Assembly (NCBI RefSeq): GCF_000373105.1
Contig: NZ_KB890425.1
Location: 62,001-126,000 of the forward strand
Direction of reading: 5' to 3'
Source of the DNA: Neolewinella persica DSM 23188
Lineage (GTDB): Bacteria; Bacteroidota; Bacteroidia; Chitinophagales; Saprospiraceae
DNA: 64,000 bases
A program made the translations under genes and the position numbers. The notes below the pieces were generated by a model, which worked only from the letters and a program-made list of their open reading frames with translations, was not told the origin of the DNA and did no database searches. The stretch's first letter is position 1. Every line of letters starts with the position of its first letter. This document shows, in pieces, positions 20,898 through 59,338 of the stretch.

Positions 20898-20954
20898 AGT
20901 GACTTTTGACGGAGGCGAATCCGCTAAAGCGCGGCAAAGGTACGTGTTGTTAGC

Positions 20955-21175
20955 CAAATAGTCAAATAGTCTTTTAGTCAAATAATCACGGAGTCAAATA
21001 GTCACAAAGTCAAGCAGTCAGATAGTGATGATTCGTGACGCTCCATTACTCCCCTGGCTAACGAGCGTAGCAAAGTAAGTGGCAACTGAGGCAGCCACTA
21101 ATTGACTACGTAACTTTCTGACTGCTTGACTAATGAGGCGCGGCCGCAGGTGCAAAGGAAGGTTGAAAGAGCAGA
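20955..21175. repeat. Composite spacer element: words, inverted words, core
   Basis: The word agtcaaatagtc and variants are iterated (20955-21030). A middle segment with aacgagcgtagc follows, then inverted words (ttgactacg, tgactgcttgactaat), then an exact core at 21137-21154 (GGCGCGGCCGCAGGTGCA), 15 purine-rich bases, and agcaga. This is the fullest example of the composite in the window. Confidence 0.7.
21137..21154 (-). repeat. 18-bp core repeat, exact copy
   Basis: Exact GGCGCGGCCGCAGGTGCA, followed by aaggaaggttgaaag and agcaga. Confidence 0.85.
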
Positions 21176-41109: not shown

Positions 41110-41125
41110 TTTCTGGGGGGGTATG

Positions 41126-41668
41126 TCCCCGGACTATGCTGGATGCTGGGCATCTCACGTTGTCTGGGGGAGTGTGTATGTCTCCGGACTATGCTGGATG
41201 CTGGGCATCTCACGTTGTCTGGGGGAGTGTGTATGTCTCCGGACTATGCTGGATGCTGGGCATCTCACGTTGTCTGGGGGGAGTGTGTATGTCTCCGGAC
41301 TATGCTGGATGCTGGGCATCTCACATTGTCTGGGGGGAGTGTGTATGTCCCCGGACTAAGCTGGATGCTGGGCATCTCACGTTGTCTGGGGGAGTGTGTA
41401 TGTCTCCGGACTATGCTGGATGCTGGGCATCTCACGTTGTCTGGGGGAGTGTGTATGTCTCCGGACTATGCTGGATGCTGGGCATCTCACGTTGTCTGGG
41501 TGAGTGTGTATGTCTCCGGACTATGCTGGATGCTGGGCATCTCACGTTGTCTGGGGGGAGTGTGTATGTCTCCGGACTATGCTGGACGCTGGGCATCTCA
41601 CGTTGTCTGGGGGGAGTGTGTATGTCCCCGGACTCCGCTCGATGCTACGCATCTCACTTCGTCCGGGG
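41126..41668. repeat. Tandem hairpin array, nine units plus a diverged tenth
   Basis: Units of 55-56 bp begin at 41126, 41181, 41236, 41292, 41348, 41403, 41458, 41513, 41569 and 41625. They contain ctccggactatgctgg, then atgctgggcatctcacg and ttgtctggggg; a run of five or six G gives the length change. Each unit can form a nested hairpin (gatgc-tgg-gcatc inside ccggac/gtctgg). The tenth unit is the intact hairpin ccccggac-gtccgggg of the 70-bp element. All three + frames are open over much of the array, but the unit length is not a multiple of 3, so I do not call genes. Confidence 0.9.
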
Positions 41669-41695
41669 TTAAAGCGATTCGATCCCTCCGGGATC
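41626..41695 (-). repeat. 70-bp two-hairpin element, copy 1
   Basis: On the minus strand: GATCCC-gga-GGGATC, a 12-nt linker ending tttaa, then a 43-nt hairpin with outer stem CCCCGGAC/GTCCGGGG and inner GATGC-gta-GCATC. It aligns without gaps to 59269-59338. It lies right at the end of the GNAT gene. Confidence 0.8.
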
Positions 41696-59268: not shown

Positions 59269-59338
59269 GATCCCGTAGGGATCAACCTTTATTAACCCCG
59301 GATGAAGCAGATGGCGTAGCCAGCAGCGGAATCCGGGG
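59269..59338 (+). repeat. 70-bp two-hairpin element, copy 2
   Basis: GATCCC-gta-GGGATC, a 12-nt linker ending ttaa, then a 43-nt hairpin with outer stem CCCCGGAT/ATCCGGGG and inner TGGC-gta-GCCA. Compared with copy 1 at 41626-41695, at least three base pairs change on both sides (outer T-A to C-G, inner T-A to A-T, inner G-C to T-A). It lies 60 bp upstream of the VWA gene. Confidence 0.8.

Follow-up and report, generated by a model that had tools for sequence, protein, structure and literature searches.

The window, i.e., the whole 64,000-nt stretch of DNA that was analysed, contains two copies of a 70-nt unit, one at 59269-59338 on the plus strand and the other at 41626-41695 on the minus strand, which align without gaps over all 70 positions and are 79% identical. 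The 59269 copy is bordered by a divergent ornithine-cyclodeaminase-like gene on one side and a VWA/CoxE-like gene on the other, and the 41626 copy occupies the spacer that separates argG from a GNAT-like acetyltransferase gene. In both copies, a 15-nt hairpin (hairpin 1; 6-bp stem and 3-nt loop) is joined by a 12-nt linker to a 43-nt hairpin (hairpin 2; 8-bp outer, 2-bp middle, and 5-bp apical stems, and a 3-nt loop) (Table 1). A preliminary description of this DNA had reported such a pair of copies, of exactly 70 positions and two hairpins each, and both were recovered where it had placed them, in an ungapped alignment and with both copies folding.

Table 1. Coordinates of the two copies and of the adjoining array in the window.
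Feature	Coordinates	Strand	Evidence
Hairpin 1, 59269 copy: stem GATCCC/GGGATC, loop GTA (59275-59277)	59269..59283	+	sequence, folding, covariation
Linker, 59269 copy: 12 nt AACCTTTATTAA, same type as the ends of the C24 tnpA	59284..59295	+	
Hairpin 2, 59269 copy: 8-bp outer stem CCCCGGAT/ATCCGGGG, apical loop GTA (59316-59318)	59296..59338	+	sequence, folding, covariation
Hairpin 1, 41626 copy: loop GGA	41681..41695	-	sequence, folding
Linker, 41626 copy: 12 nt GAATCGCTTTAA, same type as the ends of the C5 tnpA	41669..41680	-	
Hairpin 2, 41626 copy: apical loop GTA	41626..41668	-	sequence, folding, covariation
Tandem array of decayed hairpin-2 copies, 55-bp period, from the hairpin-2 end of the 41626 copy to just before the argG start	41121..41625	-	

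Two occurrences of the hairpin-1 motif GATCCCGNAGGGATC were found in the window, versus 0.00 expected. Folded as RNA, the 59269 and 41626 copies reach -32.8 and -35.9 kcal/mol, respectively (z -5.2 and -4.6; matched by none of 200 shuffles of either copy), and, folded as DNA, -18.6 (0/200 shuffles as good) and -17.5 (2/200 as good). The three paired substitutions that the preliminary description had read as keeping the pairing are all real in the alignment of the two copies: an outer T-A becomes C-G, an apical T-A becomes A-T, and an apical G-C becomes T-A. Two further differences, absent from that description, lie at columns 40/59, where C-G becomes T-G, and at columns 44/56, where the 59269 copy has an A/G mismatch and the 41626 copy a G-C pair. 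The edges of the unit are sharp, with positions outside the 70 nt carrying at most 0.53 bits in 29 copies of the own genome.

Including hairpin 2, from which it is derived, the array beside the 41626 copy spans 41121-41668 and holds 9.9 copies of 55 bp. Long open frames on the plus strand within this span are probably spurious. Elsewhere in the window, an 8-bp tandem repeat (TAGTCAAA, 9.5 copies) is found at 20951-21026.

Dispersed copies and covariation

BLAST searches of the own genome (7.08 Mb) with the two window copies yielded 22 matches at E <= 0.001 for one and 51 at E <= 1 for the other. Alignment A1, with 31 rows, consists mostly of full-length BLAST matches together with three rows from tnpA flanks, gathered regardless of folding, and alignment A3 comprises the 24 rows that are left after removal of 7 shifted, gapped, or partial ones. 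In A3, 96.4% of 504 cells are paired and 61 are double changes versus a shuffled mean of 19.6; in A1, the values are 93.3% of 638 cells and 77 versus 25.7. None of 500 shuffles, which ignore the relatedness of the copies, reaches the paired percentage, the double-change count, or the covariation score in either alignment, and slid-structure controls pair at 27-55% in both. Covariation over 24 and 31 copies, the check that had been proposed, therefore indicates that the structure is more than chance. The count of further pair types does not exceed the shuffles, 411/500 of which reach it in A3 and 322/500 in A1. In A3, the 61 double-change cells stand against 6 one-sided changes that keep the pair, 18 cells are unpaired, and G-T cells are scarce (11/504).

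A structural model built from the 24 rows of A3 gave 82 matches in the own genome at E <= 0.001; array units contribute to this total, and so, very likely, do second matches on the opposite strand. The genome search proposed in the preliminary description found at least 46 distinct places, a set that excludes matches below 38.9 bits (array units, opposite strand) as well as places such as those on C25, C23, and C78. Tandem arrays lie within 60 nt of 12 of 27 copies, and an array at a distance above 500 nt occurs at 5 of the 27 loci. Of the 12 nearby arrays, 3 repeat the entire unit and the other 9 are on the hairpin-2 side. Stems breaking as often as loops, the outcome that the preliminary description had named as counting against it, are not seen in the dispersed copies. 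However, the decayed tandem units near the 41626 copy have lost their GNA loop, the apical GTA having become CCA, and carry a mismatch in the outer stem. The selection on structure that had been claimed is supported by the covariation over copies, but not in its implied form of selection on each copy in place: the kept pairing seems better explained by what the use of a copy by a transposase requires.

The tnpA genes, their flanks, and the linker

The own genome has seven Y1_Tnp genes, five of which, one truncated, match the tnpA alignment A2. The HUH motif is present in 5/5 of these genes and Y-x3-Q-x2-HH in 4/4 full ones, and the four full proteins all match Pfam Y1_Tnp (PF01797). Searched as a joint profile, they hit Y1 transposases of solved structure, ISHp608 TnpA among them (E about 1e-15), and the best NCBIfam family is IS200/IS605, above the cut-off for 2/4 proteins. 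The other three full proteins are 61, 45, and 30% identical to that of C5. Further features of this tnpA type are DH[IVL]H, WQ, and a length of about 150 aa. On these motifs, the partner protein is assigned as a putative TnpA_Y1 of subclass 1.2. Its nearest named relative is found in Neolewinella aurantiaca (Saprospirales, Bacteroidota; 78% identity), and a contig search for related loci with one protein query gave 2 loci, with a partial locus from a Clostridia MAG left out. The Y-x3-Q-x2-HH motif recurs in 101/106 loci of the family and in 28/29 loci read across the phylum, where 133/296 genomes have tnpA matches at E <= 1e-20.

Three of the five own-genome tnpA genes of this type have the two-hairpin unit as inverted ends: at C5, C24, and C10, the gene is bracketed by oppositely oriented model matches, with hairpin 1 gene-proximal and hairpin 2 outside. 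The truncated gene of C28 has one model match. N. aurantiaca (L042) and another genome, G116 (L045), carry tnpA genes with inverted two-hairpin ends as at C5; at each end of the G116 gene, hairpin 2 is followed by a third GNA hairpin, GGCGC-GAA-GCGCC. The C35 gene has a different type of repeat, common to C28, in which GTAG precedes the second hairpin (read by eye). Inverted flank repeats exceed the null maximum at 14/34 tnpA loci, C35 not being among them, and no fixed cleavage dinucleotide is clear in 29 flanks. Other Y1 genes (flanks L036, L035, and L040) are bordered by tandem arrays and different hairpin families; the repeat type of L036/L039 has GTAG at the foot of hairpin 2.

The hairpins of the unit are mostly capped by GNA triloops. 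In A3, the hairpin-1 loops are GGA in 18 copies, GTA in 4, GAA in 1, and AGC in 1 (GNA in 23/24), the apical loop of hairpin 2 is GNA in 21/24, and the loop-closing pair is C-G in 23/24 and 24/24, respectively. In the available text of two papers (PMC4686876; PMC11101458), GNA loops are described as forming extraordinarily stable DNA mini-hairpins. Such caps are enriched around tnpA genes in the family. With GNA counted on either strand (GNA/TNC), 218/487 triloop hairpins within 400 nt of tnpA have one, versus 31/204 beyond 700 nt (Fisher p 2e-14, in a test that treats as independent hairpins that are not), and block-shuffled flanks give about 10/90. Of the 109 loci entered, from which 9 duplicates or fragments had already been removed, 3 had no readable gene. 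Where flanks overlap, as in L066 and L128 with two tnpA genes 0.9 kb apart, a few hairpins may be counted twice. At least one near GNA hairpin occurs at 74/106 loci. In the wider phylum (29 loci), the counts are 65/128 near versus 23/82 far, with such a hairpin at 23/29 loci. A class-2 control gave 25/73 near and 6/51 far (10/27 loci), and its near fraction does not differ significantly from that of the subclass 1.2-type genes (p 0.10), suggesting that the GNA cap is partly shared with class 2. In the class-2 Y1 flanks (L265-L291), GGA is the commonest loop, which may come from few loci.

The spacing of the two hairpins also recurs near tnpA. Within 30 nt of the 218 near GNA hairpins, a second hairpin was found 101 times on the 3' side and 104 times on the 5' side, and it starts at 9-14 nt in 44/101 versus 16/104 cases (p 1.3e-5, a value that is too small because array copies and related copies are not independent). 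The commonest 3' spacings are 12 nt (14 cases) and 11 nt (9). In the 29 phylum loci, the spacing is unpeaked (9-14 nt in 6/30 on the 3' side versus 4/26 on the 5' side; p 0.74). Near tnpA, 115 of the 218 GNA hairpins point inward and 103 outward; the outward orientation seen at C5, C24, and C10 is therefore not general in the family.

The preliminary description had held that the linker diverges while the stems hold. This is true of the window pair but not in general. In 18 copies with a GGA loop, the linker is 82% identical, versus 53% for the apical stem of hairpin 2, in which pairing rather than sequence is kept. Moreover, among the 46 places of the own genome, CG occupies linker positions 5-6 in 23/27 GGA-loop copies versus 0/9 GTA-loop copies (p 7.6e-6, again too small on account of array and related copies), the remaining 10 having other hairpin-1 loops or no hairpin 1. 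The tnpA ends of C5 are of the GGA-loop/CG-linker kind and those of C24 of the GTA-loop kind, as are those of C10, with another linker. The 41626 copy is of the C5 kind and the 59269 copy of the C24 kind, so that the linkers of the window copies differ because the copies belong to two subfamilies.

G116 provides a second case. There, 8 of 17 distinct copies have exactly the linker [AGC]AACATCCTTA[AG] and the other 9 differ from it at one or two positions, and the 5' arm of hairpin 1 is variable (GACTCC, GACCAC, GACCCC, GATCCC, or GATCCT). These copies were chosen by the structural model and kept if at least 5 of the 6 stem positions of hairpin 1 were paired; they therefore cannot serve as a test of pairing. 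Their linker type is the same as that of the G116 tnpA ends; the linkers of the own genome (G000) and of G116 differ, and each agrees with the ends of its own tnpA. The linker follows both the loop type and the resident tnpA ends and, therefore, marks the subfamily; it is not free to drift.

Distribution among genomes

In a sample of 199 genomes of the family, 122 have a tnpA match and 23 a structural-model match, the latter in a search that scored at most 25 candidates per genome under strict filters. A tnpA match is present in 20 of these 23 genomes (p 0.006) and absent from 3. Within the genus (21 genomes), model matches occur in 10 and tnpA matches in 14, one being a 50-residue fragment, and no co-occurrence is seen at this level (tnpA in 7/10 genomes with a model match versus 7/11 without; p = 1). 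One genome, G201 (L295, L302, L308), has 56 model matches and no match to subclass 1.2 tnpA in an assembly that is 99% complete; its copies are perhaps orphans.

At the locus of the 41626 copy, the spacer between the acetyltransferase gene and argG holds a model match in 5/21 genus genomes, scoring 91.9 bits here and 65.3, 63.4, 47.5, and 43.4 bits in the four others, and none was found in the other 16. The acetyltransferase neighbour is seen at argG in 20/21 genomes, and the contig ends there in the remaining one. These spacers show presence and absence but are too diverged for an exact empty site. Gene order around the 59269 copy is not conserved within the genus: beside the VWA gene, the divergent ornithine-cyclodeaminase-like neighbour was found in 1/20 loci (its own), and no empty site is therefore readable.

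In other genera, the matches, which were selected by the model, keep the 15 nt and 12 nt of hairpin 1 and linker with other stem letters, often with a 19-nt hairpin 2 (46 nt in total). In one relative, G056, 19 regions on 18 contigs hold 20 model matches; 15 of the 19 share an identical 46-nt core, and about 15 are inverted dimers as in REPINs (by eye). Their flanks are partly alike and, therefore, the repeated unit may exceed this core. In another genome, G041 (L245-L264), 20 copies of a 56-nt two-hairpin unit lie inside a longer conserved stretch with left and right arms of its own, which is like a small transposable element.

Known systems, rival readings, and proposed role

Subclass 1.2 was defined by Quentin et al. 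2018. The available text of that paper (PMC6006769) gives for this subclass a low copy number, an occurrence mostly in Bacteroidota and Cyanobacteria, "no" under REP, and a general lack of typical terminal structures. The genes described here agree with that text in DH[IVL]H, WQ, HUH and Y-x3-Q-x2-HH, about 150 aa, Bacteroidota, and low copy number (5 matches in the own genome), and differ in having inverted two-hairpin ends (C5, C24, C10, L042, and L045) and dispersed copies at several genes. Since "generally" leaves room, this terminal structure is an addition to the description and not an exclusion from the subclass. No later account of REP or terminal structures for subclass 1.2 was found among the open-licence papers searched.

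The unit also resembles the REP/REPIN/BIME/REPtron systems of TnpA_REP (RAYT), e.g., group 2 of E. coli, as portrayed in the available text of PMC8266576. Those are likewise short dispersed palindromes that also flank Y1 tnpA genes, as does this element with its at least 46 places and its tnpA-flanking units, and the likeness extends to inverted dimers (here in G056), tandem arrays, and, for group 2, a stem broken by unpaired bases (here in hairpin 2). In contrast, REPs have one hairpin in place of two set 12 nt apart, their conserved 5' GT[AG]G foot has no counterpart here (among 42 linkers, the 3' end is TTAA in 26, TTTG in 3, ATAA in 3, and others in 10, with GTAG in none and GTGG in one), and their cognate TnpA is of class 2 (Y-x3-NP), whereas the partner here has Y-x3-Q-x2-HH. 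In TIRtrons (TIRYT), a Y1 transposase gene also lies between long inverted repeats whose members are dispersed, and the genomes of P. putida and P. fluorescens contain hundreds of copies in which degenerate GTAG units adjoin unrelated stem-loops (available text of PMC3733652); GNA caps and a fixed or tnpA-specific linker, which are found here, do not figure in that description of TIRtrons, with which the comparison was made by text alone. The ends of the IS200/IS605 elements IS608 and ISDra2 also form ssDNA hairpins that a Y1 TnpA recognises, and a guide sequence lies 5' of their palindrome (PMC8266576, available text), but the ends described here are bipartite and in inverted orientation, tnpA is of low copy number, and solo units are many. 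Finally, RepRanger counted palindromic REPs in Bacteroidota in two Flavobacterium genomes and one Thermoflavifilum genome (available text of PMC12306157); RAYT and tnpA are absent from its main text, which therefore gives no partner gene.

Several other explanations of the element have to be weighed. A structured RNA (a UTR regulator, a small RNA, or a terminator) kept for its RNA fold would account for the strong RNA folding and the covariation, and hairpin 1 at 59269-59283 was scanned as terminator-like (1 found versus 0.4 expected), a call owed to the T-rich linker. However, no such site was found at the 41626 copy, the 59269 copy lies between divergent open frames, G-T cells are few (11/504), and the element has no Rfam 15 match at gathering score, only 2 tRNAs being found in the window; moreover, the unit recurs as inverted ends at tnpA genes, and its copies are dispersed and patchy. 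An RNA role is thus very unlikely, and, where the preliminary description had left RNA and a DNA cruciform side by side, DNA is to be preferred because of the mostly GNA triloops, the lack of an Rfam gathering-score match, and the identity of the unit with the inverted ends of HUH/Y1 tnpA genes.

It is likewise unlikely, if somewhat less so, that the units are the ends of an ordinary IS200/IS605-like IS and the solo copies its decayed remnants. The sharp ends of the unit, the match of the TnpA profile to solved IS-type Y1 transposases, and the best NCBIfam family would suit such an IS, but IS200/IS605 ends are in direct orientation and those found here are inverted, and, in place of several near-identical tnpA-bearing copies, there are few (5) and mutually diverged tnpA genes (61, 45, and 30% identity to C5) versus dozens of solo units that keep their pairing. 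About equally doubtful is an inert element whose covariation arises from mutation bias, through template switching in quasi-palindromes at replication. The excess of double over one-sided changes is the one expected if one arm is copied from the other, and the tandem arrays at 12/27 copies attest to instability; yet this bias leaves the GNA loops, the length of the linker, and its agreement with tnpA unexplained, and it may act in addition. Fold, covariation, GNA caps, linker, and spread among genomes are better accounted for by a bipartite REP-like substrate of subclass 1.2 TnpA than by an RNA element, by the end of a plain IS, or by mutation bias acting alone.

The 70-bp element is probably a REP-type DNA repeat, dispersed and non-autonomous, with an HUH/Y1 TnpA_Y1 of subclass 1.2 as its partner, and is best read as an ssDNA substrate of mobile-DNA enzymes, i.e., a bipartite variant of REP/REPtron, and not as an RNA gene. 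This reading starts from the structure and its covariation, the sharp 70-nt ends, the position of the unit at tnpA flanks, the tnpA-agreeing linkers, and the near-identical copies on many contigs of a relative. That TnpA moves the unit is inferred from what its relatives do (available text of PMC8266576), and strand choice, TnpA binding, cleavage, and transfer are likewise proposed. In this mechanism, the strand with the GNA loops would become single-stranded, e.g., at the replication fork, and fold into two GNA-capped hairpins, both of which TnpA would bind. TnpA would use the linker, together with the TTAA/TTAG-like foot of hairpin 2, as its specificity and guide sequence, cleave near the unit with its tyrosine, and join the strand elsewhere.

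A wider proposal, for and against which the balance is even, is that subclass 1.2 TnpA_Y1 of Saprospirales-type Bacteroidota run a REPtron-like system of their own, built of a GNA hairpin, a 12-nt tnpA-specific address linker, and a second GNA hairpin. In this system, the C5- and C24-type tnpA genes would each have seeded their own solo copies, the window holding one of each, and hairpin 1 may let one 70-nt unit fill both halves of a TnpA dimer. The main reading itself would give a partner DNA to subclass 1.2, whose ssDNA enzymes have been described as without one. Because of the GNA caps and the subfamily-specific linker, recognition of the substrate can be put to a direct test with short oligonucleotides, and the covariation in the window would be explained without an RNA gene.
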